This document shows, piece by piece, positions 23,193 through 53,879 of a DNA stretch of 64,000 bases; position 1 is the first letter of the stretch, and each line of letters starts with the position of its first letter. Origin of the DNA: Pseudomonas versuta (GTDB lineage Bacteria > Pseudomonadota > Gammaproteobacteria > Pseudomonadales > Pseudomonadaceae); the NCBI RefSeq assembly GCF_001294575.1, contig NZ_CP012676.1, forward strand, positions 3,744,501 to 3,808,500, in the 5' to 3' direction. The notes under the pieces were generated by a model. It saw nothing but the letters and a program-made list of their open reading frames with translations, had not been told where the DNA came from and did no database searches. The position numbers and the translations under genes were made by a program.

Positions 23193-23584
23193 GGGGCCGT
23201 TTAGGATTCGACGCCGGTTGCGAAACTCTAGGTGCATGCCGAGTTGGTAACAGAACTCGTAAATCCACTGTTGCAACTACTTATAGTTGCCAATGACGAA
23301 ACCTACGAGGGTCAAGCTCTCGCAGCGTAAGCTGCCTTAGCCATCCTCCTGGTACCTTCGGGTCCAGCAATCACTAGGGGATGCCTGTAAACCTGAAGTG
23401 ATTGTCATATAGAACAGGATCGCCGTGCAGTACGTTGTGGACGAATCGGCTAAAACTTACACAACTCGCCCAAAGCACCCTGCCCTTCGGGTCGCTGAGG
23501 GTTAACTTAATAGATACGGCTAAGCATGTAGTACCGACAGCGGAGTACTGGCGGACGGGGGTTCAAATCCCCCCGGCTCCACCA
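23193..23584 (+). ncRNA. ssrA: Transfer-messenger RNA (tmRNA, 10Sa RNA)
   Basis: Rescues stalled ribosomes with SmpB. The 5' end GGGGCCGTTTAGGATTCGAC and 3' end GGTTCAAATCCCCCCGGCTCC-type T arm followed by ACCA form the tRNA-like part. The tag reading frame is at 23289-23330: GCC AAT GAC GAA and on to TAA, giving ANDETYEGQALAA. The tag ends in the expected ALAA degradation signal. The length of 392 bases is normal. Confidence 0.97.
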
Positions 23585-38875: not shown

Positions 38876-39037
38876 CCGCCAGTCTCAGTTGCGGGTGCCC
38901 GGCAAACTGCACTCGATCATCGTGCACCAGATGGCGTATCGTTCGGCAAACATTCCAGCACCCGCCAGGGGCTGGAGCAGAAATACACCGTCAGCCATTT
39001 AGTTGAAGCGTTGACGGGTCGCCGAGCAGGAAACCCC

Positions 39038-39928
39038 ATGCAACTTGAATGGCTTGAAGACTTTATCGAGCTGGCACGCACCCGCAGTCTGTCCCGTGCT
39101 GCCGAGAATCGTTGCGTCACCCACCCGGCGTTCGGCCGGCGCATCCGGGCACTGGAAGAGTGGGTCGGCTCGGCGCTGATCGAGCGCAAGCAACCGCTGT
39201 CGCTTACGCCTTGCGGTGTATTGTTTCTTGATGCCGCCACGCAGTCGCTGGCATTGCTGACTGCGGTCAGGGCGCAATTCCAGGGCACCACCCTGAGCCG
39301 CGACGAACCGGTGCGGATCGCTACAGGCCGTACTCTGGCCTGTGATTTTTTCCCCGACTGGTACCAGTCGCTGAACCGCCAACTGGGCAGTTTTCCGGTG
39401 TCACTGGTTACCAGCGGCGCCCAGGAAGCAATCAGCAAACTGTCCGCCGGCGAGGTCGACTTGCTGCTGAGTTTTTCCAGCCCCTTGACCCAGACGCTGA
39501 TGGACCCGCAGCGTTTCGACTCGCGAGTGCTGGCCAGTGAAGAGTTGTTGCCGGTCAGTGCACCCGACGCCCATGGGCAACCGCGACAGCAAATAGCCGT
39601 CGACAGCAGTGCCCTGACCATCCCCTGGCTGGCGTTTTCGCCGACCCTGGCCCTGCGCGGGGTGCTGGCCCAGCACCTGGAGCAACTGCCTCAGCGTCTG
39701 GCCCTGCGCATGGTTTATCAGGCTGATTCCTATGACGCCATTCTGGAAATGGCCAAGCGTGGCATAGGCCTCGCGTGGCTGCCGCGCATGGTGGTCAAAG
39801 GGGCACTGGAGTCCGGCGATTTGCTGATTGCGGGCAGCGCCGAGTTCCGCGTCAGCTTCGACGTTTCGCTGCATCGCTTGCGCGCCAACCAGAGCGAACT
39901 GGTAATGAAAATCTGGAACAGTCTTTGA
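39038..39928 (+). CDS. LysR-family regulator resembling HypT/YjiE
   Basis: 296 residues from ATG 39038 (MQLEWLEDFIELARTRSLSR). HTH region SRAAENRCVTHPAFGRRIRALE; effector domain from about 90. The N-terminal signature ('LEWLEDF...PAFGRRIRALEEWVG') is that of the HypT branch, some members of which respond to oxidants, but a metabolite sensor is equally possible. It is upstream of and codirectional with the MHS transporter, whose leader carries two direct repeats that could be its sites. Confidence 0.87.
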   Translation: MQLEWLEDFIELARTRSLSRAAENRCVTHPAFGRRIRALEEWVGSALIERKQPLSLTPCGVLFLDAATQSLALLTAVRAQFQGTTLSRDEPVRIATGRTLACDFFPDWYQSLNRQLGSFPVSLVTSGAQEAISKLSAGEVDLLLSFSSPLTQTLMDPQRFDSRVLASEELLPVSAPDAHGQPRQQIAVDSSALTIPWLAFSPTLALRGVLAQHLEQLPQRLALRMVYQADSYDAILEMAKRGIGLAWLPRMVVKGALESGDLLIAGSAEFRVSFDVSLHRLRANQSELVMKIWNSL

Positions 39929-40005
39929 CCGCTCCTGTACCGCAACAGCCATAAGATCCCAACCCTTCAGGCCTGAAAACGCCCTGCGGCAGCGGCTTTA
40001 CAGGC

Positions 40006-40042
40006 CCTGTGCCCAAACAGCTCAAACCTGTGCCCAAACAGC
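40006..40042 (+). repeat. Two 16-base direct repeats with 21-base period upstream of the MHS transporter
   Basis: CCTGTGCCCAAACAGC occurs at 40006-40021 and again at 40027-40042. Each contains the dyad TGT-N6-ACA and they are two helical turns apart, the pattern of tandem regulator sites. They lie 135-171 bases before the transporter ATG, inside the 248-base gap after the LysR gene. Confidence 0.6.
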
Positions 40043-40176
40043 AATTGCCGTTGCCGGGTACTTGCTGCAACTTCACCGGGCTTCACTCATAAAAAATAAT
40101 GCCTTCGATCTTGCCTGGCCGCACTGCGGCCCGGTGAATCCGGATGCCAACTGTGAAATAGACCTGGTGCTCACCC

Positions 40177-41493
40177 ATGACAGTTCAATCATCCGCCGTA
40201 CCCTCGGTACGTGCTGCGACCAAGCGAGGCCCATGGAAGGAAATCGTCGCTGCCAGCGTCGGCAACGCGCTGGAATTCTACGACTTACTGATCTACGGCT
40301 ATTTTGCGGTGGTCATCAGCAAGCAGTTTTTCCCCTCCGATAACGAAACCACTTCATTACTGCTGGCCGTGGGCTCGTTCGGCATTTCCTTTTTGATGCG
40401 CCCGCTGGGCGCCATCGTCCTCGGTTCATATGCCGACAGGGCCGGGCGCAAGGCATCGTTAACGATGTCGATCCTGCTCATGTTGCTCGGCACCGCGATC
40501 ATTACCTTCGCTCCGACCTATGAGCAGATCGGCCTGCTGGCACCGCTGTTGATCATCGTTGCGCGCATGCTCCAGGGCTTTTCCACAGGCGGGGAATTTG
40601 GTGCAGCGACGGCGTTTATGGTCGAACACGCCGATGCCAAACGCCGGGGCTTCTTTGCCAGCTGGCAATTATCGACCCAGGGCCTGGCGACGGTTTTGGC
40701 AGCGGGCGTGAGCGCGCTCCTCAGCTATGTGCTGTCGGATGTGCAATTGAACACCTGGGGCTGGCGGGTGGCATTCGGCATCGGCCTGCTGATCGGCCCC
40801 GTGGGTTTTTACATCCGCACGCAAATCGATGAAACCCCGGACTTCAAGAAAACCGTGGCCAATATCGCGGTCAAGACTCCGTTGCGCGATGTGCTGATCA
40901 AAGGCCATGTCAGCCTGTTGCTGGCCATCGGCGTCGTTGCCGGGGCCACTGCATTCAACTACGTACACAAGCTGTACATGCCGATCTATGCCCTGAAACA
41001 GTTGCACATCGCAGCTACTTCCTCGTACCTCGGGGCCTTGATGACCGGCATCACGCTGATGATCATGGCGCCGGTGTTCGGCGGACTTTCCGATCAGTAC
41101 GGTCGATTCCGGGTACTGACCATCGCCCTGTTGATAACCGGGTTTTCGTCCTACCCGATGTTCGTGCTGCTCAACACCTTCCCTAGCCTCTCAACCCTGT
41201 TAATGGTGCAAGCGATTGTCGGCGTGTTGATCGCAGCCTGCCTGGGGCCCATCCCGGCAATGCTCGCCGACATCTTCCCGACCAGCATTCGCGGGACAGG
41301 ACTGGCGCTGAGCTACAACTTTTCAGTCACCCTGTTTGGCGGGTTCGCCCCGTTGATCGTGACCTGGATGATCGATGCTACCGGCAACAAACTGGCCCCC
41401 AGTTTTTATGTGATGGCGACCGTTCTGGTCAGCGTACTGGCAATCATCTGCCTGGGACGACGCATGCGCGGCATCAGCCCTGCAGCCAGTTAA
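40177..41493 (+). CDS. MFS transporter of the metabolite:H+ symporter (MHS) family
   Basis: 438 residues, 12 predicted segments. The MHS hallmark ASVGNALEFYDLLIYGYFAV is in TM1 and GSYADRAGRKASLTMSILLM in loop 2-3, with ARMLQGFSTGGEFGAATAFM in TM4. The family carries carboxylates such as citrate, 2-oxoglutarate, proline or shikimate. It is followed 78 bases later by a deacylase-like gene, so an N-acyl amino acid or related acid is a reasonable guess. Confidence 0.9.
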   Translation: MTVQSSAVPSVRAATKRGPWKEIVAASVGNALEFYDLLIYGYFAVVISKQFFPSDNETTSLLLAVGSFGISFLMRPLGAIVLGSYADRAGRKASLTMSILLMLLGTAIITFAPTYEQIGLLAPLLIIVARMLQGFSTGGEFGAATAFMVEHADAKRRGFFASWQLSTQGLATVLAAGVSALLSYVLSDVQLNTWGWRVAFGIGLLIGPVGFYIRTQIDETPDFKKTVANIAVKTPLRDVLIKGHVSLLLAIGVVAGATAFNYVHKLYMPIYALKQLHIAATSSYLGALMTGITLMIMAPVFGGLSDQYGRFRVLTIALLITGFSSYPMFVLLNTFPSLSTLLMVQAIVGVLIAACLGPIPAMLADIFPTSIRGTGLALSYNFSVTLFGGFAPLIVTWMIDATGNKLAPSFYVMATVLVSVLAIICLGRRMRGISPAAS

Positions 41494-41571
41494 ACAGCAG
41501 CAAACCCATCTTGCCTGTCGCACCCTGAACCCGGTGCGGCACACGCAAAAGCTGATCTGACGGAGACACAA

Positions 41572-42555
41572 ATGAAGACCCTTGAACAAGTTCGCGCAGC
41601 GCTCACACCCTACCCCGTTGAAGTCGAATTTCCCGATATCGAACCCTGGAAAACCGGTAACTGCGGGATCGACTACGTCCACAGCTTCGACAGTGGCCAG
41701 CCCGGGCCCCATGTGCTGATCATGGCACTGACCCATGGCAACGAAGTCAGCGGAGCGATCGCGGTAGACACCTTGCTGCGCAGCGGTGTGCGCCCGCGTC
41801 AGGGACGACTGTCGCTGGCATTCGGTAATGTAGAGGCCTATCACCGCTTCAATCCACAGGACATCGACGCGACTCGCTTTGTGGACGAGGACATGAACCG
41901 TGTCTGGCTACCAGCGGCGCTGGACGGAGAGCGCGACTCGGTAGAATTACGCCGCGCCCGTGAATTACGGCCGCTGATCGACAGCGTCGATTTACTGCTC
42001 GATATTCACTCGATGCACGAAGAGTCCGCACCGCTGATGATGTGTGGTGCTTGCAGCAAAGGTCTGGAGTTCGCCCGGTCGCTGGGCGTACCTGCAACCG
42101 TCGTCGCCGACGCCGGCCACGCCAACGGACGACGCATGCGTGACTACGGCGGATTTGGCGATGCCGCCAGCCACAAAAACGCCCTGCTGATCGAGACCGG
42201 CCAGCACTTTTCAAAGAAGAGCGAACACGTGGCCCTCGATGTGGCAGCACGTTTCCTGATCGCCACCAAAGCCGTCGCCGAAGCCGACGTGCAAGGGTTT
42301 CTAAGCCAGCAACAGCCCGTCACCCAACAGTTTCTGCAGGTCACCGAGCCGGTGATCGCCAGCAGCATGGACTTCAGTTTCAGCGAAGACTTCCGAGGCC
42401 TCGAACGAATCGCCCGGGCAGGTACGGTGATCGCACGGGATGGCCAGCGCGAGATCGTCACCCCGTATGACAATTGCGTGCTGATCCAGCCGTCACTGCG
42501 CCATCTGGGCCAAGGGGTTACGGTGGTGAGACTGGCGCGAGTGCTGGCTATTTAA
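41572..42555 (+). CDS. Succinylglutamate desuccinylase/aspartoacylase-family (M14-like) zinc hydrolase
   Basis: 327 residues. Zinc ligands are likely in MALTHGNEVSG (His, Glu) and LLDIHSMHEES (His), with the family motif FVDEDMNRVW. The C-terminal domain (from about 230) is the usual beta-sandwich. Members remove acyl groups from amino acids (AstE, aspartoacylase) or act on related amides. The neighbouring MHS symporter suggests uptake followed by deacylation. The specific substrate is not readable. Confidence 0.87.
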   Translation: MKTLEQVRAALTPYPVEVEFPDIEPWKTGNCGIDYVHSFDSGQPGPHVLIMALTHGNEVSGAIAVDTLLRSGVRPRQGRLSLAFGNVEAYHRFNPQDIDATRFVDEDMNRVWLPAALDGERDSVELRRARELRPLIDSVDLLLDIHSMHEESAPLMMCGACSKGLEFARSLGVPATVVADAGHANGRRMRDYGGFGDAASHKNALLIETGQHFSKKSEHVALDVAARFLIATKAVAEADVQGFLSQQQPVTQQFLQVTEPVIASSMDFSFSEDFRGLERIARAGTVIARDGQREIVTPYDNCVLIQPSLRHLGQGVTVVRLARVLAI

Positions 42556-43327
42556 CCGGGCTGCATGCCGCCTGCACAGGAAGCACAAACCAGGGTAACC
42601 GGGTCGGCCTTCACAACGGGCCATCCGGATACCCGCACAAGCCCCACAAAATGAGCATGGCCGGCACGGCACCATGCCTGGCTATGACCTCCCCCGCCTG
42701 CACCTGACCCGAGTTGCCTGCACACTGGCAATAACTTCGGCGCCCCTGCTTCGCCGACGGCTTATCCAGAACATGGGCATTGCGCCGCTTTATGACGAGG
42801 CTGGCCAATATGGCATGAGCCATCGCGCATTCATCCCCCCGAGAAACCTCCGCAAAAAGTGCTGGAATTTATCCAGATTCTGCGAGCAAACCTCACGCCC
42901 CGCGGGAATAGATAACGCTGCGGGGTATGCAGTGGGCATTAATTAAATGCCGGCATGAATTCATTTATTTCTTCAGACAAATACATTTCCTAATGTATCT
43001 ACCTTCGGCATTAGCGAGGTGGCGCTTACATCATTAACCATGTTTTTTTATTATCGGGCCACAGCCGACGACTCAAGTCCAACCCGGCACACAACCTGTT
43101 GAGTCTAAACGTTAACCGGGCTGTAACCCCCCGCATGTTAAAGTAGATACAAGACGAAATGCCGATACTGCTGGCATTAGCATACAAACACCACCCAACA
43201 ATAAATGTGAAGAATGGCGAAACAGTTAGTCGTTCTGCACACCTTTTTAACGAAACATACTTAACATGTGGCCCGTCAGAAACATTGACCACGGAGTTGT
43301 CAAGTGCACTCGCAAAAACCCAACGGG
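42556..43327. other. Gene-poor 770-base stretch, AT-rich in its right half
   Basis: I see no convincing gene. Open frames at 42674-42946 (+) and 42611-42823 (-) have no ribosome site or recognisable protein and overlap each other. From about 42940 the base composition becomes clearly AT-richer and stays so through the response regulator gene, which marks a likely junction with acquired DNA. The first part may hold decayed coding sequence. Confidence 0.5.
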
Positions 43328-43984
43328 ATGAACATATTATTAATCGGCGATGATCGTTCTTTGGGTGAAGGCCTTCAGGCTTTTCTTCATCACAACGGTT
43401 TTACTTGCATATGGGAGCGTGACATAACGGACATTAAACACATATGGCGATCCGCAAGCCTGGCTATATTAGGCCGACAAATACTTGGCAAAGACAGCAC
43501 TCGGCTTCTTCCAGGCTTGCTTACGATAAAAGCATTACCTGTGATTATTCTCACGACTTGCGCCGACGTAGAGGAAAAGATTGCCGCACTGGAAGCAGGA
43601 GCGCGTGACTACGTCACAAAGCCATTTGCCCATATAGAACTTCTAGCCCGTATACGTGCTCAGATAAGACCCTTGGGTGAGGGAAACCTGGAATCCGGTG
43701 AACTTCTGCTAGTCCCCTCCAAACGTTTGGTCTTCTGGAAAGGACAGAAGATTTCTCTTACCCATAAAGAGTTTGAGTTGTTGTTAATCCTTGTACAAAT
43801 GGCCGGACGTGTTTTTACCAGGGAGGAATTACTTAACCAGGTATGGGGTTATAAAAAATTCCCCTCGACCCGGACGATTGACATGCACATCCTGCAATTG
43901 CGGCGAAAAATCCCCAACATCAAAATATCGACCATACATGGCGTTGGTTATCGTCTGGCCGATGACGGACACCCGGACCTTTAA
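43328..43984 (+). CDS. OmpR-type response regulator lacking the phospho-aspartate
   Basis: 218 residues from ATG 43328 (MNILLIGDDRSLGEGLQAFL). The receiver domain (1-115) keeps the acid pair (D8, D9), the Thr of VIILTT and the Lys of DYVTKPF. The phospho-acceptor Asp at the end of beta-3 is Gly49 (SLAILGRQI). The C-terminal winged helix (about 125-215) is intact: SLTHKEFELLLILVQMAGRV and TIDMHILQLRRKIPN...IHGVGYRL. No kinase is nearby. It is AT-richer than its neighbours and converges on the biosynthetic genes at 44.1-51.4 kb, so it may control them without phosphorylation. Confidence 0.88.
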   Translation: MNILLIGDDRSLGEGLQAFLHHNGFTCIWERDITDIKHIWRSASLAILGRQILGKDSTRLLPGLLTIKALPVIILTTCADVEEKIAALEAGARDYVTKPFAHIELLARIRAQIRPLGEGNLESGELLLVPSKRLVFWKGQKISLTHKEFELLLILVQMAGRVFTREELLNQVWGYKKFPSTRTIDMHILQLRRKIPNIKISTIHGVGYRLADDGHPDL

Positions 43985-44066
43985 TATATTTAACCCCAAG
44001 TAACACTCCACTCGGACCCACTGCATTCTCCCTGCATTAACCGCCCTGCTCTTCACAAGTTGGTGT

Positions 44067-44097
44067 CCCGGACGTATTCCATAAAATCCCGTCCGGG
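44067..44097. terminator. Hairpin between the response regulator and the PigE-like gene
   Basis: CCCGGACG (44067-44074) pairs with CGTCCGGG (44090-44097) around a 15-base A/T-rich loop. It lies between convergent genes. There is no T-run beyond the stem, so termination is possible but not certain. Confidence 0.4.
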
Positions 44098-44149
44098 CAT
44101 GTTGCCAAGTTTGCCGGTTTTGCATAACCGGACCGGCCACTGAAAAGCA

Positions 44150-46660
44150 TCAGGTAAGGAAGGTCGACATGTCTTGGCAAACGGTACGGAATGCCTGGGC
44201 AAAATGCGCCGCTTCAGCCTCGCTGAGTACCAAGGGTGGCTGGATACGTATAACCCGGTTGTTATTCGCGGTGACAAAGGTCAGCACGCCGTGCTCCTTC
44301 GACAGTTTGATGATGAAGCGCAGTACGAACATCTCCTCAAAGTTCTTCTCCACCTCACTGATCGCCTCCTGGATGTGCTGCCTGGCTTTATCAGAAAGCA
44401 TTCGGTAGGTACCTGCTGCGTTCCCCGGTATACGACTGGCAAACTCGCGTACGAATGCCTCCACCCCCCCTTGGAAACTGTATTCAAACTCGATGGCAAT
44501 CATCAGCCCTGTGCCCCGCACCTCGCGAATGAACGGGTAGGCACTGACCACTTCACGCAAGTCGGCCTTGAGCTGGCCACCAACACGGGCGGCATTGCCG
44601 GCCAGGTCTTCGTCGATGATCACGTCAAGAGTCGCAAGGGCCGCAGCAGAGGCAAAGTTGCCGCCACCGAAGGTCGAAGTATGCAAGGCGAAGGTGTCGA
44701 TGCTGCCATAGGCTCGATCCCACAGCGCCGCCCCGGACAGCGTAGCGCCTATGGGCACGGCACCGCCGGAGAGGGATTTTGCCAGCACCAGAATGTCAGG
44801 CACCACCTCTTCCCATTCACACGCAAATAATTTGCCGGTACGCCCGAGCCCCGTCTGGATCTCGTCGAGAATCATCAGGCAACCATGGGCACTGCACAGT
44901 GCCCGCACCTGTCGCAGATAGCCCGCAGGCGGCAGGATCACCCCGCCCTCACCCTGGACCGGTTCCAGGATAAAAGCACCAATTTGCCCCTGGACCAGGG
45001 CCGCTTCCAGAGCAGCAATGTCACCGAAAGGAATCGAATCACAACGTTCCAGCAATGGTTTGAAGGGCTCGCGGTGCTTACTGCGACCGGTCACTGATAA
45101 CGCGCCCAGAGTCTTGCCGTGGTATCCGTTCTCGCAATACAGCACCCGCGGACGGGCCATGGCAGCCATGGCTAATTTCAACGCGGCTTCTATGGCTTCG
45201 GTGCCGGAGTTACTGAAAAACACCCGTTCAAGATTGCCCGGTGCCAGTTCGCAGAGTCGCTGCGCCAGCAAGCTGGTTTGTTGCGGCACCGATACGTATT
45301 GCACAAAGGTTGGGTGCTGCTGTTGCAGGTAAGCCTGCAATGCCTGGTTGACCCGCGAATGGTTGTGCCCGGTGTTCAGGCAGCCATAGCCGGCGACAAA
45401 ATCCAGATAACGGTCGCCATTGAGATCGGTCAGCCAGCATCCACTGCCCCGGGTAAAGACCCGTTCGATATGGTTGAACCGGTAGAACGCCTGCAACACC
45501 GGGTTGATGTGCTGGCCAAAGCAGCGCAGGACTTCGTCGCGCACTTGCGGCGCACAATCGCTGGGGGCGGCCTCGGCACCGCGATGGTGAAAGCGGCGCA
45601 AGGTCTGAAACGCCTGCGGGTGCAGGCGCTCGCCACTGGAGGCCATCGGCGATGGCGAAAAACCATGTTCGCCGGCGATCCGGCCTATCTCCAGCACCTG
45701 CTCCTCGGGCAATTCACGGCCGATGGAAAAAGCTTGCGCGCGGCCTTCCAGAGCCAGAACCAGGGTTTCGGCCAGACAGCCATTGAGGAACTTCTTGGGG
45801 GCCAGCCCAAGAGACTCGGTTCCAAAGCGCACGGCCTCGCTGGCGGACACCAGTCCACCGTCGATGATCAGGATGTCGTTGCGGTCGTGATGAAAGGGCA
45901 GCACGTCCCTGGGCAAAGCAGCGTCCACCACTACTGAGCCCGGGGCCAGTCGATAAGGGTCGATCACCCCGCCGCTGGAGGTCGCTGCGACGTAGAACAG
46001 CACCTCGTCGTAACAGGTAGCGATCTCGGGAGTCAGGCACACCTGAGGGTGCATTTGCACCGGCAGGTAGCTGAGACTTTTATGGCCCTGCTCGACACTG
46101 CCCCGGTGCACCAGGCGCAGGCGGCAACCCTTGCGCGCCAGCAGCCTGGCAATAACCAGAGCGATAGAGCCGGGGTAGCCGACCACCGCCACTTCGCAGT
46201 CAGCGGGCGACACATCCAGGCGGGCCATGGCTTCAAGCACGTTCTTGTAGGCCGCAAAGGCAGTCAGCGAATTACCGGTGGTCACCGCCACGCCGCTACG
46301 GTCCAGCGTTTGCAAACCACGGTTGCCGACAATCGCGGTAAAGCCCCCCAGACCCACCAGCTGGGCACCTTGCGCGCTGAGGCTTTGCACACCTTCCAGT
46401 ACGCGCTCAGCGATCGTTCGCGGCTGGCTGAGCATCTGCTCGGCGGTGAGCGGCAGGTAATGCAAAATACCTTCGCAGGTAGCACCGGTGGCACTGACGA
46501 TACGCCCGAAATCAGCGAACGGCACCAGGTTGCGCGGCTTCCAGAGTTGAGATTGATAGCCCAGATTCTGCTCGGCAAGCGTACGGTCCAGCAGGTCGAT
46601 AATTTTGACTTGACGCTGCAGGCCGATGGAAGTCGGATGGGCAATAAAACCGAATTTCAT
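44150..46660 (-). CDS. PigE-like fusion: acyl-thioester reductase + class III aminotransferase
   Basis: 836 residues from ATG 46660 (MKFGFIAHPTSIGLQ), chosen for its AGGGAG site; an ATG at 46687 would overlap the previous stop. The N-terminal half (1-345) resembles cyanobacterial acyl-ACP reductase: GGFTAI (105-110), TTGNSLTAF (127-135), the Rossmann motif GYPGSIA (161-167) and Cys295 in FLNGCLAETLVLALEG, aligned with the catalytic Cys. The C-terminal half (about 380-836) is a PLP transaminase: SNSGTEAIEAALK, GYHGKT, LDEIQTG with D599, and Lys628 in LVLAKSLSGG. PigE of prodigiosin synthesis has this layout and length. It would reduce an acyl thioester to an aldehyde and aminate a keto-aldehyde, giving a pyrroline. 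Confidence 0.82.
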   Translation of the reverse strand: MKFGFIAHPTSIGLQRQVKIIDLLDRTLAEQNLGYQSQLWKPRNLVPFADFGRIVSATGATCEGILHYLPLTAEQMLSQPRTIAERVLEGVQSLSAQGAQLVGLGGFTAIVGNRGLQTLDRSGVAVTTGNSLTAFAAYKNVLEAMARLDVSPADCEVAVVGYPGSIALVIARLLARKGCRLRLVHRGSVEQGHKSLSYLPVQMHPQVCLTPEIATCYDEVLFYVAATSSGGVIDPYRLAPGSVVVDAALPRDVLPFHHDRNDILIIDGGLVSASEAVRFGTESLGLAPKKFLNGCLAETLVLALEGRAQAFSIGRELPEEQVLEIGRIAGEHGFSPSPMASSGERLHPQAFQTLRRFHHRGAEAAPSDCAPQVRDEVLRCFGQHINPVLQAFYRFNHIERVFTRGSGCWLTDLNGDRYLDFVAGYGCLNTGHNHSRVNQALQAYLQQQHPTFVQYVSVPQQTSLLAQRLCELAPGNLERVFFSNSGTEAIEAALKLAMAAMARPRVLYCENGYHGKTLGALSVTGRSKHREPFKPLLERCDSIPFGDIAALEAALVQGQIGAFILEPVQGEGGVILPPAGYLRQVRALCSAHGCLMILDEIQTGLGRTGKLFACEWEEVVPDILVLAKSLSGGAVPIGATLSGAALWDRAYGSIDTFALHTSTFGGGNFASAAALATLDVIIDEDLAGNAARVGGQLKADLREVVSAYPFIREVRGTGLMIAIEFEYSFQGGVEAFVREFASRIPGNAAGTYRMLSDKARQHIQEAISEVEKNFEEMFVLRFIIKLSKEHGVLTFVTANNNRVIRIQPPLVLSEAEAAHFAQAFRTVCQDMSTFLT

Positions 46661-46683
46661 GGTGGGGTGCTCCCTATGCACGC

Positions 46684-49098
46684 TCATTGACGGCTCCAAG
46701 CGGTTTCCGAGACCAGACTCAAGCCATCGCCCTCCGAGTTGTGGGCCAGCAATACGTCGATAATATTCAATTGCCCGGGACACATCAGAAGGCTGCGCAG
46801 GCGTGCCTCATCGAACTTCACCAGGCGTTCGCGGTGCACGCAGATCGAGCCCGCCCGCTCCAGTGAAACGGCCAATGACCCGGCACTGGAGACTGCAACC
46901 TGCAACGCGCCGTTATGGGCGTATCGCTTGTCGAGGTAGGTCTGGATCAGCGACAACAGGCCATTGGTTAGATAGAACAGGGTCACGTTGCGTTTTTTTG
47001 CACCGCGATCGCCGGCCAGGCCATCGATGAGCCGCGCCTCGATATCCGGCACCAGCGCCCGGGCACCGTCACCGACAAACGCCAGCACGTTGCCCGAGCC
47101 GGTCATGGCAATGTAAGGCAGCGCCATAAGACCGTCCCCCATCAAGGCGCGTCCGTACCAGCCGGAAAACCCCGGATCAGTGCGCGGCACATTACGTAGC
47201 GCAGAAATGCCACAGCGCCCGACGTCGTAGACGCCAATGTAGCGATAGCCCTGTTGCTCGATCAGCTCGCGCACCAGGTTGCCCAGGCGCAGAAAGAAGT
47301 AGTTGGCGGTCATCGGCAGCGTCTCGACCTGGTCCACCGCGACGCTCTCGCTGATACCGGACAACACCTCAAGCTTGGCACGGCGCAGTGCGAGGACCTG
47401 CGGTTCGACCTGCAAACCGCGCTCTATATGATCGAGAAAGACATCCAGCGGCACATTGAGCGACAGGTCAGTAAAAGGCGAAACATGACGCGGCTCATGA
47501 TTGACCTGCACGATCCGCAACTGGCGCTTGAGCTTGCCTTCGGAGAATGGTGTGGCCGCCTGGTCGACCTTGCCCTTTAGAAAGAACACGCAATGGCTTT
47601 GCGGCCCGTTGAGCTCATGCCCGGTGTGCATGAAGTGATAGATACGGCGACTGAAACCATACAGGGACAACGGCCCCAGATACTGCGGCACCGGTTGGCC
47701 CTTATGGTATGGGCCGACGCTCCCGGGCTGGGTGATGCTGTCGGCCAGGGCAATGGCTGCGCGCTCGGCCAGTACGTAGACTCGCTGGCGTTGCCCGTCG
47801 CTGAGCTTGCCGCATTGCCAGAGCAAGTGCAGCGGCTGGTGATTGATCAGATCCAGGGCCTGATCCAGCGCTTGGAGCTGACTGCTGTCGAGGGGGGTAT
47901 CAAGGGCCGTCCCCCGCCCAGGCAAACCTACATTCAGCGGCTTCCTGGGACGGGACTCCAACACACCTTGGGTAGCAAGGATGAACACCGGCTCCGCCCG
48001 CTCGGCGAGCATGGCGAAAGCCTGCTCCAGGCAAGTGCCAACCTCCTCGACCTTGCGGATGAAGACCTGGCGCAAGCCTTTGGCCTCGATCACCCGGCAC
48101 CCGTTGTTTTCAACGTCGTGGGTGCCCTGGAAGGCGTACCAGACATTCTCCGGGCTGTCGGCACAGATGATCAGCCCCGGCGCACCGAGGCGCTTGAGGT
48201 TGGCCAGGGTACCGCGAAACTCGTCAATCATGCCCGACGTCACGGTGATCACATAAGCACGGCCAAACAGCTGCCAGCCAGCCATGGCACTGACCGCCAG
48301 ACTGTGCTCATTGCACCCGCTGAAGCACCGCACTCCTGTTCCGGTGAGGTTCTGCTGCATGGACTGGATCAACCCTGCAACCATGGAGCCCGTGTATGAA
48401 TGAAAGTCCCAGTGCTCTTGCCAGCGACTGCGCATGAACCGTGTCACTTCGGTGGCCATGCTCACTGACAGCAACGGGCTGGTAATGGAACGTGCCAGCA
48501 GGCGGTTAAAGTGAACGTGCTCCAGGTGATCGAGCACAATGCGCAGCAAGTCCGCGCGCCGAGCGGCACGGTCATCATCAATCACTCGCAGATTACGGTT
48601 CCCGCCCACCTGGTTCATCCACCCCGCCAAGGCTGACAAGGCGCAATACATCAGTGCTGAATGGGGCGAGAGGCGCGTGCCGGGCGTAATGGCGATCAGC
48701 GCGTCAAACGGGTCTTCGAAGCTGGCCTCGGCCTGCTCACTGAGATCGAGGATAAATATCTGGCTGGACAGTTGCGGGGCCTGGCAACACAGCTGCACCT
48801 GTGCCGCCTCGATCGAGGTGAAGCTCATCAGGCACGGCTCAGGCACCACCATGACATCGGGCAGCATTGCTTGCAGGTAGTGCCGGGTCTTGAGGACAAG
48901 CATTTGCAGTACCGCCTCGCTTCGCGGTTTTGGCCCCGGCCCGCAGAGCATGCCTTCATTGCCACCCTGCTTCAGCGGCCGGTCAGGTGCACAGGGAGCG
49001 GGCTGTCGGCACGCCTGCAACTGTTCAATAACAAAGGTCACATCCTCGATTAGAGTCTGGGCCCGGGTAACGAGACAAATACCTAAGATTGGCTTCAT
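46684..49098 (-). CDS. PigD-like thiamine-diphosphate-dependent enzyme
   Basis: 804 residues from ATG 49098 (MKPILGICLV); a TTG six codons upstream is less likely. A ThDP-enzyme core is visible. CNEHS (262-266) in the pyrimidine domain offers catalytic Glu264. GDG at 676-678 and TNG at 711-713 form the GDG-Xn-N diphosphate motif. About 230 residues precede the core, as in PigD. In prodigiosin synthesis PigD decarboxylates pyruvate and adds the acetyl unit to an enal. It lies 24 bases upstream of the PigE-like gene, the same partner order as pigD-pigE. The exact substrate is unknown. Confidence 0.75.
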   Translation of the reverse strand: MKPILGICLVTRAQTLIEDVTFVIEQLQACRQPAPCAPDRPLKQGGNEGMLCGPGPKPRSEAVLQMLVLKTRHYLQAMLPDVMVVPEPCLMSFTSIEAAQVQLCCQAPQLSSQIFILDLSEQAEASFEDPFDALIAITPGTRLSPHSALMYCALSALAGWMNQVGGNRNLRVIDDDRAARRADLLRIVLDHLEHVHFNRLLARSITSPLLSVSMATEVTRFMRSRWQEHWDFHSYTGSMVAGLIQSMQQNLTGTGVRCFSGCNEHSLAVSAMAGWQLFGRAYVITVTSGMIDEFRGTLANLKRLGAPGLIICADSPENVWYAFQGTHDVENNGCRVIEAKGLRQVFIRKVEEVGTCLEQAFAMLAERAEPVFILATQGVLESRPRKPLNVGLPGRGTALDTPLDSSQLQALDQALDLINHQPLHLLWQCGKLSDGQRQRVYVLAERAAIALADSITQPGSVGPYHKGQPVPQYLGPLSLYGFSRRIYHFMHTGHELNGPQSHCVFFLKGKVDQAATPFSEGKLKRQLRIVQVNHEPRHVSPFTDLSLNVPLDVFLDHIERGLQVEPQVLALRRAKLEVLSGISESVAVDQVETLPMTANYFFLRLGNLVRELIEQQGYRYIGVYDVGRCGISALRNVPRTDPGFSGWYGRALMGDGLMALPYIAMTGSGNVLAFVGDGARALVPDIEARLIDGLAGDRGAKKRNVTLFYLTNGLLSLIQTYLDKRYAHNGALQVAVSSAGSLAVSLERAGSICVHRERLVKFDEARLRSLLMCPGQLNIIDVLLAHNSEGDGLSLVSETAWSRQ

Positions 49099-49191
49099 GG
49101 ACGTATACCTACTCAAGTCGAACTTCCGGTTAAAAGGTTCGCTGTTATCGCCAGTAAGACGCCGTCCAATTCAAACCCGTGCAACTCGCAC

Positions 49192-49209
49192 TTATTGGCG
49201 CGCCAATAA
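49192..49209. promoter_or_regulatory. 18-base perfect palindrome upstream of the PigD-like gene
   Basis: TTATTGGCGCGCCAATAA is perfectly self-complementary and lies 94 bases upstream of the PigD-like ATG, in the 295-base gap after the decarboxylase gene. It looks like a dimeric regulator site; the regulator is unknown. A second hairpin at 49345-49369 (CCGGGTGTT/AACACCCGG) follows the decarboxylase stop and may reduce read-through. Confidence 0.55.
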
Positions 49210-49393
49210 ATCAGAAAAAATAAAACCGATGGCGCCCCCCGCAGAACCGAGAGCAACCATGACTCCTTGAAAGACAAACAGGTGACGATACAGAGCCCTG
49301 CCTGCACCCCATCAATATTGATAACTACGGCAACTATTGCCCGTCCGGGTGTTCAGCAATAACACCCGGATGGTTATATACACTACCGCTCAA

Positions 49394-50758
49394 TTACAGA
49401 GCCTGGTATTGACTCCTGTACTCATCGGCGATGCACTTCGATAGCCTGATGATTTGATCCGCCAACTCATCAACCATGGCCAAGTGTTCCTTTTTCATCA
49501 GCGTCAGTCTTATACAGCTGACTTCACGAAATACGCCGGTTTCAGATGAAATATCACAGTCTGCCATCGCCACATAAAAACCTGAGGCTTTAAGTTGCTC
49601 ATACAGTTGGCGTGTCGCAGCGCTGATATCCGCACATTCAATATAAAACACCACGATATCAAGAGCCGGTTCACGAACGACAAGCCTCACGTCATCAACG
49701 GCAAAAAGCAGTTCAGACATTTTAACGGCCGCGGTATGACAAGAAAGAAGCACCCGGGAAAACTCCCCCTCTTCTTCTAAAGGGAGACATTGCATGGTGG
49801 CCCACAACGCAGCTGCAGCTGCGCCAGGCCGGGAACATTCCAGGGTCTTTTCACCGATGCTGATACCTCGCCGGTCAAAATAAGTGTACGGCGAGTCGTG
49901 CGTATATATCGCTTGCGACGTCGACTCGCTGACACCTCTCAACAGCAGTGCGCCACAGCCAAAACCTTGAAGCCCATGTTTATGAGGATCAATGACTATC
50001 GAATCCGCGGCGGGCAGAAAGTCGAAAGCTTTTCGGTTACGTCCAGCAAGACGCGCTCGAATCAAATAGAAGTAGCCGCCATAGGCCGCATCGACATGAA
50101 CTTTAAAATCATGTTCGGCCTTAAGGGAAAATATTTCATCCAGGGGGTCGATTGCACCATTGAGGGTGGTCCCTAAAGTACATACCACCACGGGCACATC
50201 TGTAGCCTCCAGTGCAGCCAGTACACCTGACAACGCTATTGAGCACAGGCTGCCGTCTTTGGTGACATCCACTTCAAGGTACTTGAGATCAAGGATATTG
50301 GCCGCGCGCTTGTGGGTAAAGTGAGCCCCCTTGCTGCAAATTACCGTGTTGGCTCCCAACGCCCTGTGAATCCACAAGGCCTCAAGATTGCCTATTGTCC
50401 CGCCCGAAGTCAGATGCCCCTGATAATGATTCCAGTCCAGCATCCTGGCCATGCTGTCAAGGCACTCAACTTCCATCTTCGTTGTGGCACGCCCTCCGTC
50501 ATAACTATGATTATTGGGATTGAACTGCATGGCCAGGAAATAGCTCATGACCGCCACATCGCACACATACCCGGACATGTGCCCGGCATAGCGGGGGTGG
50601 AAATAGGGGTCGTTATCGCCCAGCCGGGTTAAAAGCGCCTGAATGACACCGTCCGTTTCGAAATCCCAACGCTGCTCAAATGAAGGAAGTTCAGGAAAAG
50701 TGCAGTACAACCTTTTCTGCGCCGCCACTAAAATTTCCAGATTCTTTCTAGACAACAT
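49394..50758 (-). CDS. PLP-dependent aromatic L-amino acid (group II) decarboxylase
   Basis: 454 residues. Fold type I decarboxylase motifs in order: GHLTSGGTIGNLEALW (about 114-129), GAHFTHKRAAN with a stacking His146, VHVDAAYGGYF with Asp223, and DPHKHGLQGFG with the PLP-binding Lys260. It resembles the tyrosine/DOPA decarboxylase branch rather than glutamate decarboxylase. Its start overlaps the hydroxylase stop by 11 bases, so hydroxylation followed by decarboxylation of one aromatic amino acid is likely (Phe to tyramine or m-tyramine, or Trp to serotonin). Which one cannot be told by eye. Confidence 0.85.
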   Translation of the reverse strand: MLSRKNLEILVAAQKRLYCTFPELPSFEQRWDFETDGVIQALLTRLGDNDPYFHPRYAGHMSGYVCDVAVMSYFLAMQFNPNNHSYDGGRATTKMEVECLDSMARMLDWNHYQGHLTSGGTIGNLEALWIHRALGANTVICSKGAHFTHKRAANILDLKYLEVDVTKDGSLCSIALSGVLAALEATDVPVVVCTLGTTLNGAIDPLDEIFSLKAEHDFKVHVDAAYGGYFYLIRARLAGRNRKAFDFLPAADSIVIDPHKHGLQGFGCGALLLRGVSESTSQAIYTHDSPYTYFDRRGISIGEKTLECSRPGAAAAALWATMQCLPLEEEGEFSRVLLSCHTAAVKMSELLFAVDDVRLVVREPALDIVVFYIECADISAATRQLYEQLKASGFYVAMADCDISSETGVFREVSCIRLTLMKKEHLAMVDELADQIIRLSKCIADEYRSQYQAL

Positions 50759-51434
50759 GTCTCATGCCCTCTGTAAGTTTGGCGTACACATCCGCAACAG
50801 ATTCAAAAACAAACAATCTTTCAGGCTCACCCGCCGCCGAGATGCCCGACTCCAATACACTTGCCAGGTCATACTCCATGATTTCAATGTTTTTGTTTAT
50901 GAAGCGCTTCAATGCAACATTCGACGTAATCAATCCACCACCAAAGGCATAAAGTTTATCGCCCCGGGCCACCACGCCGAACTCAAGTGTGTAAAACCAC
51001 AGTTTCAACAATAGTTCGCGTTGCTCTTTAGTGACCGTGGCCCACAAGACAGCAAATTGCTTGCTCACCTGGTTGAACTTCGGGAACACAAAATAGGGCG
51101 CATGACCAAAGAGGTCGTGATAGAAATCGGTCATGTCCGATTGCGCTACATGTTCGGGAGGCCTGACGTTGGCGTATACCGGAAACTTCCCTTGCGCCAG
51201 AATTGCAAACCAGGCGTCAAGCCCGACAGGGTAGGTCAGTTTGATTGCACCCCCTTGTGTAGAAATAACATCCTTTATTTTTTCGATCTCTATAGGTCGT
51301 TCCATCAACCTGAGTGCCTCCACCCCGTGGTGCCACTCACTGCATATATAATCCTGCGACTCATGCAATAGAGCCGTAAAGGAGCTCCAGACCCGATCAA
51401 ACTCTCTTTCATTAACAGTTATATCTTCCTGCAT
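50748..51434 (-). CDS. Pterin-dependent aromatic amino acid hydroxylase
   Basis: 228 residues, a little shorter than bacterial phenylalanine hydroxylase (about 260). The iron triad is H106 and H111 in FYHDLFGHAPYF and E151 in LWFYTLEFGVV; the substrate Arg is in NVRPPEHV (R91). It has no N-terminal ACT regulatory domain. It needs tetrahydropterin and oxygen; no pterin recycling gene (phhB) is nearby, so that must come from elsewhere. GGAGAAGG precedes the ATG. First gene of the set. Phe 4- or 3-hydroxylation or Trp 5-hydroxylation are all possible. Confidence 0.85.
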   Translation of the reverse strand: MQEDITVNEREFDRVWSSFTALLHESQDYICSEWHHGVEALRLMERPIEIEKIKDVISTQGGAIKLTYPVGLDAWFAILAQGKFPVYANVRPPEHVAQSDMTDFYHDLFGHAPYFVFPKFNQVSKQFAVLWATVTKEQRELLLKLWFYTLEFGVVARGDKLYAFGGGLITSNVALKRFINKNIEIMEYDLASVLESGISAAGEPERLFVFESVADVYAKLTEGMRHVV

Positions 51435-51871
51435 TACCTTCTCCAGAGCGTCCTTGTCCTAAAACACTAACTTCAGGAAAACTGGAATATGTCAGGGACT
51501 TGTAAAATCTTTGCTGAATTCAGATAAAGAATGATAGCCGAAAGCTACCATGTCCGACATTAAGACAATAATCGTGACCCACTGGAAGTTGAACGCTAAT
51601 AACCTGCAACTTGCGCCTGTGCCGAACGCCCGGGCCGGCGCAATCACTCGGAATGCAGGCCAGAGCCGGCTGTTGACAGAGCAACAGCTGCGCAACAGTT
51701 ATTGCTCCATTAACGACAAACTTGTCGTCTTTGATACTCCCCGCCGCCCCCTGTGAAGGACCTTAAAGCACCCGGCACAGCCCGCAGCTGTGGCCTCAGG
51801 CGCGCTAAACATGGGCAGGCACAGTTATTGCTCTGGTGCTTTTAACGGTTATTTTTAAATGGAGTCAGTCA
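51435..51871. other. Divergent regulatory stretch between the hydroxylase and tonB
   Basis: 437 bases that must hold the promoters of the biosynthetic genes (leftward) and tonB (rightward). The left part (51450-51600) is AT-rich. A 68-codon frame at 51550-51756 (+) has no ribosome site or recognisable product. I found no Fur-box-like sequence before tonB and no clear operator. Confidence 0.45.
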
Positions 51872-52669
51872 ATGGCCAAAGTCCAGACCGCAGGCGCAGT
51901 GTCAGAGGCCCTGTGGCATCAGGCACCGATCGGCGAGTTGGTCGATCTGGGGCGGGTTTATCGAGGGCCGCTGGCGCTGCTGCGGTTGCCCGCGCCCAAG
52001 CGCATCTTGGGTCGAGGCGAAGCCGTGCTGCTGGGGGTTTTTGCCCTGGCACTGCATGGCGCAGTGATTTACTGGATCAGCCAGTCACCGGCGCCCGTAC
52101 TGCCGATCGTGCCACCGGAAGTCCCGCCGATGACCATCGAGTTTTCGCAGCCGGCACCGGTCATCGAAACCCCGCCTCCACCGCCAGAACCTATCCCGCA
52201 ACCGGTGGCCGAACCGCCACCGCCCGTGGAGGACGAACTGGCGGTGAAGCCGCCGCCACCGCCCAAACCCAAACCGGTGGTCAAGCCGGTGCCCAAGCCC
52301 GTCGCCAAACCGGTCGAACAACCACCGGCACCGCCAGCACCGCCGGTTGCCGCGCCAGCGCCACCGGCACCACCCGCGCCCAGGCCCGTGACCCCGGCCT
52401 CGGCCAATGCCGGCTACCTGCATAACCCGGCACCGGAGTACCCGGGGCTGGCGATGCGTCGCGGCTGGGAAGGTACGGTGCTGCTACGGGTGCATGTGCT
52501 GGCGAGCGGTAAACCCGGCGAGATTCAAATCCAGAAAAGCAGCGGTCGCACCCAGCTTGATGACGCAGCCCTGGCAGCGGTCAAACGCTGGAGTTTTGTA
52601 CCGGCCAAACAGGGCGACGTCGCCCAGGACGGCTGGGTCAGCGTACCCATCGACTTCAAAATCAAGTAA
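51872..52669 (+). CDS. tonB: TonB energy transducer
   Basis: 265 residues from ATG 51872, with GGAG 8 bases upstream. A cytoplasmic segment of about 55 residues (longer than enteric TonB) is followed by one membrane segment (about 56-75; AVLLGVFALALHGAVIYWI), a long Pro-rich periplasmic spacer with PEPIPQP and KPKPV repeats (about 85-185), and the C-terminal TonB domain (YPGLAMRRGWEGTVLLRVHV...KRWSFVPAKQG). It energises outer-membrane receptors with ExbB-ExbD, encoded next. No receptor gene is nearby. Confidence 0.94.
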   Translation: MAKVQTAGAVSEALWHQAPIGELVDLGRVYRGPLALLRLPAPKRILGRGEAVLLGVFALALHGAVIYWISQSPAPVLPIVPPEVPPMTIEFSQPAPVIETPPPPPEPIPQPVAEPPPPVEDELAVKPPPPPKPKPVVKPVPKPVAKPVEQPPAPPAPPVAAPAPPAPPAPRPVTPASANAGYLHNPAPEYPGLAMRRGWEGTVLLRVHVLASGKPGEIQIQKSSGRTQLDDAALAAVKRWSFVPAKQGDVAQDGWVSVPIDFKIK

Positions 52670-52753
52670 TTCAACCCTATCGATAGACCGCGGGCCACCT
52701 GACAAAAGGCGCATCGCTACACACGAACCAATGCCTTGTTGGAGAGCCACACC

Positions 52754-53476
52754 ATGAACCTGATCGCTTCCCCTTTCGAATCCATTGAACATGCGGTTAT
52801 CTGGCTGCTGATTATTTTTTCGGTCGCTACCTGGGGCCTCGCACTGATCAAAGGGGTGCAGTTCACCCGGCTCAAGGCCCAGGACCGAAAATTCCACAAA
52901 CGCTTCTGGGCCGCCTCAAGCCTGGACTCGGCCGCTGAACTGGCCCACACCCAGCCGGGCGCTGCAGCCCGCGTCGCGCAAGCTGGCTACAACGCCATTC
53001 AAGTCGCCGAAGGCGGCGCGCCCGCCACTGACCTGAGCCATGCGATCAACCATCAGGACCGCCTCGAACGGGCCTTGCGCCAGCAGATCGTGCGCGAACG
53101 CCGCTCGCTGGAAAGTGGCCTGGCCATTCTGGCCAGTATCGGCAGCACCTCGCCTTTTATCGGTTTGTTCGGCACCGTGTGGGGCATTATGTCGGCCTTG
53201 AAAGGCATCAGTGCTGCCGGCTCCGCCAGCCTTGAAACCGTGGCCGGCCCCATTGGCGCAGCGCTGGTCGCGACCGGTGTCGGGATCGCGGTCGCAGTAC
53301 CTGCGGTGCTGGTCTACAACTACTTTTTGCGCCGCCTGAAACTCACTGTCGCTGACTTGGACGACTTCGCCCACGACTTCTACAGCCTCGCGCAGAAGAG
53401 CTCATTCCGCGTGCATTTGCATCCGGTGCTGAACAAATCTGCAGCATCTGCTCAAAAAGTGAAGGAGGCGTCCTGA
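52754..53476 (+). CDS. exbB: ExbB proton channel subunit
   Basis: 240 residues from ATG 52754 (MNLIASPFESIEHAVIWLLI); an ATG six codons upstream is less conserved. MotA/TolQ/ExbB family: TM1 at about 12-32, then the pair GLAILASIGSTSPFIGLFGTVWGIM (about 130-155) and GPIGAALVATGVGIAVAVPAVLVYN (about 170-195). It forms the pentameric channel around ExbD. It lies 84 bases after tonB and 1 base before exbD. Confidence 0.95.
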   Translation: MNLIASPFESIEHAVIWLLIIFSVATWGLALIKGVQFTRLKAQDRKFHKRFWAASSLDSAAELAHTQPGAAARVAQAGYNAIQVAEGGAPATDLSHAINHQDRLERALRQQIVRERRSLESGLAILASIGSTSPFIGLFGTVWGIMSALKGISAAGSASLETVAGPIGAALVATGVGIAVAVPAVLVYNYFLRRLKLTVADLDDFAHDFYSLAQKSSFRVHLHPVLNKSAASAQKVKEAS

Positions 53477-53477
53477 T

Positions 53478-53879
53478 ATGGCGTTCTCAACCCAGGACAG
53501 CGATGAAGTACTCAGCGAGATCAACGTCACGCCACTGGTGGACGTGATGCTGGTGTTGCTGGTGGTGTTTATCGTCACCGCCCCGCTACTGACCAACTCC
53601 ATCCCAATCAACCTGCCCAAGACCGAGGCTGTGGCCCCGGTCGAGCAGAAAGACCCGCTGGTGGTCAGCATCGACGACAAAGGCAAAGTGTTCATCAACA
53701 AGGACGAAGTACAGCCGCAAACGCTCGAATTCAACTTGCAGGCCGCCAAGGCCAAAGACCCCGATGTTCGCGTGCAATTGCAGGCGGACAACGGGGTGAA
53801 CTATGGCGAAGTGGCACGGGCCATGGCCTCGATCGAACGTGCGGGGATTACCAAGCTGTCGGTGATTACAGCGAAATAG
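53478..53879 (+). CDS. exbD: ExbD proton channel subunit
   Basis: 133 residues. One membrane segment contains INVTPLVDVMLVLLVVFIVT, with the essential proton-carrying Asp in PLVDVMLVLL. A periplasmic peptidoglycan-binding-like domain follows (about 60-133). Directly after exbB; the three genes form a tonB-exbB-exbD operon. Confidence 0.96.
   Translation: MAFSTQDSDEVLSEINVTPLVDVMLVLLVVFIVTAPLLTNSIPINLPKTEAVAPVEQKDPLVVSIDDKGKVFINKDEVQPQTLEFNLQAAKAKDPDVRVQLQADNGVNYGEVARAMASIERAGITKLSVITAK

Follow-up and report, generated by a model that had tools for sequence, protein, structure and literature searches.

In a 64,000-nucleotide stretch of the Pseudomonas versuta genome (contig NZ_CP012676.1, positions 3,744,501 to 3,808,500; hereafter the window), four minus-strand genes at 44150-51434 probably make up a chimeric locus, in which a pyrroline module consisting of a PigD-like and a PigE-like enzyme stands beside a hydroxylase/decarboxylase module that would make an arylethylamine. 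The genome is a single contig of 5.15 Mb, and all four genes are open and intact. In order of transcription they encode a divergent pterin-dependent aromatic amino acid hydroxylase of 228 residues (50748-51434; PF00351), a group II aromatic amino acid decarboxylase of 454 residues dependent on pyridoxal phosphate (PLP) (49394-50758; PF00282), a PigD/PdtL-type thiamine diphosphate (ThDP) enzyme of 804 residues (46684-49098; NCBIfam NF053552 and trees) and a PigE/PdtM-type fusion of a thioester reductase with a class III aminotransferase, 836 residues long (44150-46660). An earlier interpretation of this DNA made from its letters alone, here called the sequence-only reading, had named the same genes, families and catalytic residues, and our alignments agree with it: H106, H111 and E151 of the hydroxylase, K260 of the decarboxylase, C295 and K628 of the fusion and the GDG motif of the ThDP enzyme are all conserved.

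The PigD-like protein had no Pfam match. The NCBIfam PigD model NF053552 matched it with an E value of 4.4e-192 and 640.4 bits, under the model cut-off of 950, and the match spanned only residues 178-809; GDG (residues 682-684) and N718 were invariant in an alignment of 26 sequences. The PigE-like protein reached 1417.1 bits with the PigE model NF053554, above its cut-off of 850, and matched PDB chain 4ppm_A with an E value of 2.9e-291. Its C295 and K628, counted from the ATG at 46660, align with the active-site Cys and Lys of Serratia PigE, the reductase Cys being named in PMC8341465. From a scan of named genomes we kept the best 80 of 97 PigD-like loci and built FastTree trees from 80 PigD and 69 PigE stretches, each with the window sequence added (81 and 70 sequences; split supports are from unrooted trees). 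Both window proteins grouped with the same 13 loci (support 1.0 for PigD and 0.999 for PigE), and every one of these 13 lies in a cluster of the pyridine-dithiocarboxylate (pdt) type, with homologues of pdtF, pdtG, pdtI and pdtJ. The split joining the window to its nearest eight loci was supported at 0.43 for PigD and 0.94 for PigE. Twenty loci with PigC and PigH formed a separate group together with L078 and L094 (0.999 and 1.0). Among the 80 PigD-like loci, homologues of pdtF, G, I and J occurred together in 27 and PigC with PigH in 20; the remaining loci, apart from eight lone pairs described further below, are in many cases actinobacterial or cut by contig ends and fall outside this sorting. 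The tree comparison, which had been set beforehand as the test of the proposed PigD/PigE pair, thus places both proteins outside the prodigiosin clade and with pdt-type pairs. The likeness to PigD and PigE stands as homology, on the NCBIfam models and 4ppm_A, but not as orthology. By NF053554 the PigE-like protein would be labelled a prodigiosin PigE, with a score well above cut-off, though it belongs with pdt-type pairs in the tree; automatic annotation can thus mislead here.

In strain F113 (P. fluorescens/kilonensis) the pdt operon has the order pdtCKPELMFGHIJON, according to passages of PMC3570484 and PMC7415375, and parts of PMC1779556 and PMC6006322 describe F as an E1-rhodanese, G as a JAB protein, H as ThiS/MoaD-like, I as a CoA-transferase and J as an AMP/CoA ligase. 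In the 13 companion loci the F homologue is a MoeZ-type E1-rhodanese, G a JAMM protease, I a type III CoA-transferase and J a CoA ligase. One annotated locus among them, L025, further encodes a ThiS-type carrier, a TonB siderophore receptor, a methyltransferase, a transporter and an acyl-CoA dehydrogenase. Its genes run receptor-methyltransferase-transporter-PigD-PigE-F-G-H-I-J, or K-P-E-PigD-PigE-F-G-H-I-J if, as we assume, pdtK is the receptor and pdtE the permease, and this equals pdtKPELMFGHIJ of F113. Because the two orders agree, the PigD-like protein would be PdtL and the PigE-like protein PdtM. A Xenorhabdus PigD homologue (P0082) is labelled PdtorfL in UniRef. A second arrangement of the gene set, with pdtF-J homologues preceding the pair, was seen in Microbulbifer, Hahella, Xenorhabdus and Photobacterium (L044, L045, L052 and L057). 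Loci from Photorhabdus, Streptomyces, Nocardia and Minicystis (L053, L059, L096, L098, L099, L101 and L102) hold a PigD homologue with no PigE next to it; the two from Photorhabdus have a distant aminotransferase on the opposite strand.

What the pair makes can be approached through known chemistry. In prodigiosin synthesis PigD transfers an acetyl group onto a 2-enoyl thioester; reduction and amination of the product by PigE then give dihydro-2-methyl-3-n-amylpyrrole (H2MAP), which was obtained from cell lysate and not from purified PigE alone (PMC8341465). The enal that the sequence-only reading had given PigD as substrate should be replaced by this 2-enoyl thioester (PMC8341465). We infer that the PigD-like enzyme would likewise start from a 2-enoyl thioester, that the reductase domain of the fusion would convert the resulting 3-acetyl-acyl thioester to a keto-aldehyde and its aminotransferase domain the keto-aldehyde to an amino ketone, and that the latter would cyclise to a 5-methyl-4-alkyl- or alkenyl-3,4-dihydro-2H-pyrrole. 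This would be released free, since no PigB, PigC or thiocarboxylate gene adjoins the pair. Passages of PMC7415375 report just such compounds from F113, the 3,4-dihydro-5-methyl-4-alkyl(C11:0)-, alkenyl(C13:1)- and alkenyl(C15:1)-2H-pyrroles, which three other strains did not make; the pdt row of the strain table there lists F113 only. Adding three carbons to each side chain leads to C14:0, C16:1 and C18:1, which are ordinary fatty acids, and the F113 dihydropyrroles are what PigD/PigE chemistry would be expected to give from the corresponding enoyl thioesters. The [M+H]+ values that we compute for these pyrrolines are 238.253, 264.269 and 292.300. Pseudomonas putida DSM 3601 makes pyridine-2,6-bis(thiocarboxylate) (PDTC). 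Such dihydropyrroles were isolated from that strain by Hildebrand and Budzikiewicz in 1986, as cited in a passage of PMC7415375, and part of PMC7911646 describes an m/z 280 compound of the same pyrrole group; our computed value for its acetyl C11:0 compound is 280.2635. By analogy, PdtL and PdtM plausibly make these pyrrolines, and the window pair should do the same; its likely product is a free long-chain pyrroline. The free 2-methyl-3-alkyl pyrroline of the sequence-only reading thus gains support from the metabolites reported, in the passages cited, for a pdt-bearing strain (PMC7415375, PMC7911646).

The second module is very rare. The decarboxylase (PF00282, E value 2.6e-31, 109.2 bits against a cut-off of 27) keeps K260, invariant in an alignment with 19 relatives, and its nearest NCBIfam model is the MfnA tyrosine decarboxylase, at 135 bits against a cut-off of 299. 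Its nearest named relative, from Serratia sp. JSRIV001, is 57% identical, and within the genus of Serratia plymuthica 2 of 30 genomes had a match at 1e-60, both at 41%. Close versions of hydroxylase and decarboxylase occur in 1 of 298 genomes of the window's genus. In the other 297 the best hydroxylase match (E value 3e-21, 29%) is at the level of PhhA and no decarboxylase match reached 1e-60, and 368 other genomes of the class gave no hydroxylase match at E 1e-30. Among 5.8 billion proteins, in a search that needs shared 5-residue words and so misses PhhA, only P0110 (96%) and P0111 (47%) matched the hydroxylase. A decarboxylase relative, P0116, is 52% identical; P0111 and P0116 are both listed with a longest contig of 37964 bases, so the two genes are probably neighbours in a metagenome. 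Plasmid searches gave no match of at least 60% identity, and two Streptomyces plasmid contexts of decarboxylase matches had no hydroxylase or PigD gene annotated. A role in defence was considered and not found, the decarboxylase having only weak SspA/DndA matches (E value about 4e-4).

The hydroxylase (PF00351, E value 5.4e-15, 55.7 bits against a cut-off of 22.7) retains its iron ligands and departs from its family in the substrate pocket. We compared it with the 44 PhhA-type sequences that passed a motif filter out of 49 loci (5 did not); no fewer than 20 of these 49 come from this genus (19 best same-genus matches and the genome's own PhhA) and are not independent. Arg91, Asp103 and Phe152 are kept as in this set, the Arg and Asp presumably being the carboxylate site of PhhA. 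The Trp found in 44 of 44 PhhA-type sequences, at the substrate-stacking place of phenylalanine hydroxylase, is Phe147, the equally constant Pro is Thr102, and Glu and Ser, both also constant in all 44, are Met101 and Thr170. A PhhA-type Phe, which we take to be the pterin-stacking residue, is Trp75. The relative P0111 has the same changes at 75, 147 and 170, and Ala at 101 and 102. Passages of PMC7027792 state that the pocket Trp of phenylalanine and tyrosine hydroxylases is Phe in tryptophan hydroxylases and that a pocket proline is strictly conserved; as we read our alignment, this proline would correspond to position 102. One change of the tryptophan hydroxylase type together with one broken, strictly conserved proline indicates a remodelled pocket. 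The C-terminal 127 residues showed no real preference, with E values of 5e-10 for TPH1 and 8e-11 to 1e-9 for phenylalanine hydroxylases. Tryptophan is our first guess for the substrate from these residues, with tyrosine and phenylalanine as further candidates. Phenylalanine 3-hydroxylase was rejected on features taken from part of PMC7027792, with no PacX sequence in the alignment: Phe152 and the Gly165-167 run are kept, against Cys187/Thr202 of PacX.

We suggest that the diverged pterin/iron hydroxylase would have as its substrate, instead of or in addition to phenylalanine, another aromatic amino acid, for which tryptophan is the best guess, and that the PLP decarboxylase would turn the hydroxylated amino acid into an arylethylamine such as serotonin. 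The genome has intact phhA, phhB-like and phhC-like genes at another site and should therefore be able to recycle pterin. A substantial minority share of our confidence goes to an ordinary phenylalanine 4-hydroxylase or tyrosine 3-hydroxylase, with tyramine or dopamine as the product of the module. The best full-length solved relatives are phenylalanine hydroxylases, the best hydroxylase model is NF008877 (phenylalanine 4-monooxygenase, 107.9 bits), and the decarboxylase lies nearest the MfnA model, all of which fits that proposal. It has to contend with the score of NF008877 against its cut-off of 247, all seven NCBIfam hydroxylase models being far under theirs, with the change of four pocket residues that are constant in 44 of 44 PhhA-type sequences, and with a genome that already has phhA and its phhB-like and phhC-like partners. 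Judged from sequence, the module probably yields a hydroxylated arylethylamine, with serotonin as one candidate. The bolder proposal, which we consider rather unlikely, sees the hydroxylase as a bacterial enzyme dedicated to tryptophan, forming with the decarboxylase the first bacterial serotonin operon, whose amine may meet the keto-aldehyde or pyrroline; according to a part of the review PMC9048412, by 2022 a gene for a bacterial tryptophan hydroxylase had yet to be identified.

Whether the four genes are one module or two is a question of composition, spacing and distribution. GC content is 0.479 in the hydroxylase and 0.508 in the decarboxylase, compared with 0.606 and 0.599 in the PigD-like and PigE-like genes, and GC at third codon positions is 0.55 and 0.54 compared with 0.74 and 0.69. 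The modules are separated on the minus strand by a gap of 295 bases (49099-49393; 277 bases with the TTG start of the PigD-like gene) that holds a stem-loop at 49341-49373. A 97-base stretch of this gap folds at -31.2 kcal/mol (z -2.1), with 6 of 200 shuffled sequences as stable; the stem-loop is possibly a terminator or a processing site, and the gap leaves room for a promoter. Promoter-like and terminator-like sites were fewer than in shuffled sequence. Stem-loops also lie 3' of the PigE-like gene at 44030-44150 (z -2.2; 5 of 200 shuffles as stable), and CCGGAC/GTCCGG motifs are common to these and the inter-module stem-loop. Neither a hydroxylase nor a decarboxylase gene was found, within the stretches examined, in any of the 80 named PigD loci or of the 12 loci from the genus (7 of the 12 being the same stretches as named ones). 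The sequence-only reading had known of no described pathway with this gene set, and our survey likewise found no cluster with all four genes. We favour two modules, perhaps on a shared transcript, because of their composition, their distribution, the gap with its stem-loop and the lack of a joining enzyme among the four genes.

A single four-gene pathway, in which Pictet-Spengler, Paal-Knorr or imine chemistry would link the arylethylamine to the keto-aldehyde or the pyrroline in one alkaloid, appears improbable. The genes do share strand and order, the decarboxylase start overlaps the hydroxylase end by 11 bases, about 295 bases separate this unit from the PigD-like gene, and a 1,4-keto-aldehyde and an arylethylamine would be chemically able to condense. 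Against this, neither a condensing enzyme nor a ligase is encoded by the four genes. The PigE-like protein retains the Lys of its aminotransferase domain, which would use up the aldehyde. A hairpin and a difference in GC divide the modules, and none of 109 PigD matches shares the 37964-base contig figure of P0111 and P0116. The conjugate of the pyrroline or its aldehyde with an aromatic amine, offered by the sequence-only reading, is not supported: nothing that we found points to it or to one product shared by the modules, and hydroxylase and decarboxylase are separate from the pair by composition and distribution.

The setting of the pair is itself unusual. A PigD homologue occurs in 13 of 298 genus genomes, and in 11 of the 12 other than P. 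versuta the fetched stretch holds homologues of pdtF, G, I and J. The twelfth (L180) has homologues of pdtI, J, K, P and E, and those of F, G and H were not found in its stretch. Seven of these 12 stretches are the same DNA as named Pseudomonas loci and therefore add no evidence to the trees. Searches of the window for remnants of nine pdt-type proteins of L025 gave nothing significant (best E value 0.68), a search of the window's genome turned up no further PigD, and the MoeZ-type protein elsewhere in it that is closest to that of L025 reaches 47% identity, compared with 83-99% in nine other near pdt clusters. With no pdt genes in the window besides the pair, these sequence comparisons indicate that the pair left its cluster or arrived without it. 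We looked for an empty insertion site in five genomes of the genus (6 stretches): two flanking blocks are conserved there, the left one (39027-42536) in 1 stretch and the right one (51861-53879) in 5, and they were never adjacent. Eight proteobacterial loci (L036, L041-L043, L047, L049, L050 and L078) carry the pair in stretches of 14-22 kb that lack every pdt and pig gene tested, so a PigD/PigE-like pair can stand alone; such free-standing pairs recur in Pectobacterium, Brenneria, Lonsdalea, Mitsuaria, Pelomonas and Photobacterium. A continuing role of the window pair in making a pdt-like siderophore, relying on genes at other places in the genome, seems to us very unlikely. Eleven of the 12 other PigD-bearing genus genomes have their pair in a pdt-type cluster and the twelfth in a partial one, as that proposal would expect, but here no pdt neighbour accompanies the genome's single PigD, and the MoeZ-type match is far below that of near pdt clusters, the other pdt genes not having been searched genome-wide. 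As the sequence-only reading had stated for PigB, condensing enzyme and bipyrrole genes, pigA, B, C and F-J of two reference loci, with letters we presume from gene order, had no match in the window at E 1e-3. We reject membership of the prodigiosin group, and we give next to no chance to the idea that the pair supplies a prodiginine monopyrrole together with partners encoded elsewhere: the NCBIfam PigE match is above cut-off, but the PigD match is under its own, the trees are separate, and no other tested pig gene is in the window, the rest of the genome not having been searched for them.

Several points weigh against the chimeric locus that we favour. The match of the pair to PdtL and PdtM of F113 is drawn from gene order, and the link from pdtL/pdtM to pyrrolines from analogy and not from experiment. 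The literature searched, which most subscription papers lie outside, gave no link between PigD/PigE-like pdt genes and pyrrolines, and in their passages on pyrroles PMC7415375 and PMC7911646 mention no gene. Passages of PMC7415375 also report that compounds 25, 26 and 29 of the same metabolite group, not identified as pyrrolines, are made by all four strains, with pdt listed for F113 only. The window pair may have become inactive or diverged after it left its cluster, and its nearest split in the PigD tree is weak (0.43). For the hydroxylase, a Thr at the pocket proline (Ala in P0111) is not a tryptophan hydroxylase feature. The L101Y-W180F change raises tryptophan hydroxylation by the Chromobacterium enzyme (from part of PMC4029321), and neither alignment has a Tyr at the L101 place (Chromobacterium numbering), where Pro69 or a gap stands. 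Full-length searches put phenylalanine hydroxylases first, and an AlphaFold model of the hydroxylase has a predicted local distance difference test score of 35, too poor for use.

Gene starts and neighbours complete the picture of the locus. From where homologues begin, the most likely start is ATG 49098 rather than TTG 49116 for the PigD-like gene and ATG 46660 rather than GTG 46783 for the PigE-like gene; with these starts the two genes need not overlap. An OmpR-type response regulator (43304-43984, plus strand, 226 residues, GC 0.47) lies convergent with the PigE-like gene and has no kinase among its two neighbours. It may or may not belong to the operon, and it may have come along with the low-GC genes. 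Genes for tRNA-Ser and tmRNA, at 12242-12337 and 23193-23584, are distant from the operon.

These results offer a testable gene assignment for alkyl-pyrrolines that have been known from Pseudomonas since 1986 and whose genes are named in none of the literature found, and they propose a role for the PigD/PigE homologues inside pdt clusters. They also bring forward a candidate bacterial hydroxylase with a tryptophan-type pocket residue beside a decarboxylase, which bears on how bacteria make serotonin. The NCBIfam name 'prodigiosin MAP biosynthesis aminotransferase PigE' falling on an enzyme outside the prodigiosin clade is a warning for annotation.

Compared with known systems, the hydroxylase shares with PhhA its fold family, iron ligands and Arg and Asp at about 30% identity, and differs by Trp to Phe, Pro to Thr (Ala in P0111), Glu to Met (likewise Ala), Ser to Thr and, at the presumed pterin-stacking place, Phe to Trp. 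Like animal tryptophan 5-hydroxylase it has Phe in place of the pocket Trp, and over its C-terminal half the alignment with TPH1 is about as good as that with phenylalanine hydroxylases; unlike the animal enzyme it has only 228 residues, and so no regulatory or tetramer domain, and it lacks the conserved proline. The decarboxylase has PF00282, the catalytic Lys and core motifs in common with MfnA-type and tyrosine decarboxylases (group II PLP enzymes), and is at most 57% identical to any of its best 120 listed matches except P0112 (98%). The PigE-like protein is homologous to Serratia PigE over its full length, with 441 of 836 aligned residues identical and Cys and Lys in common, whereas the PigD-like protein shares the ThDP motifs of Serratia PigD and about 40% identity over the 617 C-terminal residues only, its N-terminal part being different. 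The reactions predicted for the pair would be those of prodigiosin PigD and PigE as far as the dihydropyrrole, in a separate tree group and in a window without PigB or PigC. Around the pair the window lacks the receptor, transporter, methyltransferase, sulfur-carrier, CoA-transferase, ligase and dehydrogenase genes of pdt-type clusters; the pair itself has the same order as pdt-type pairs and, in the ten nearest named loci, is 74-80% identical to them for the PigD-like and 83-87% for the PigE-like protein.

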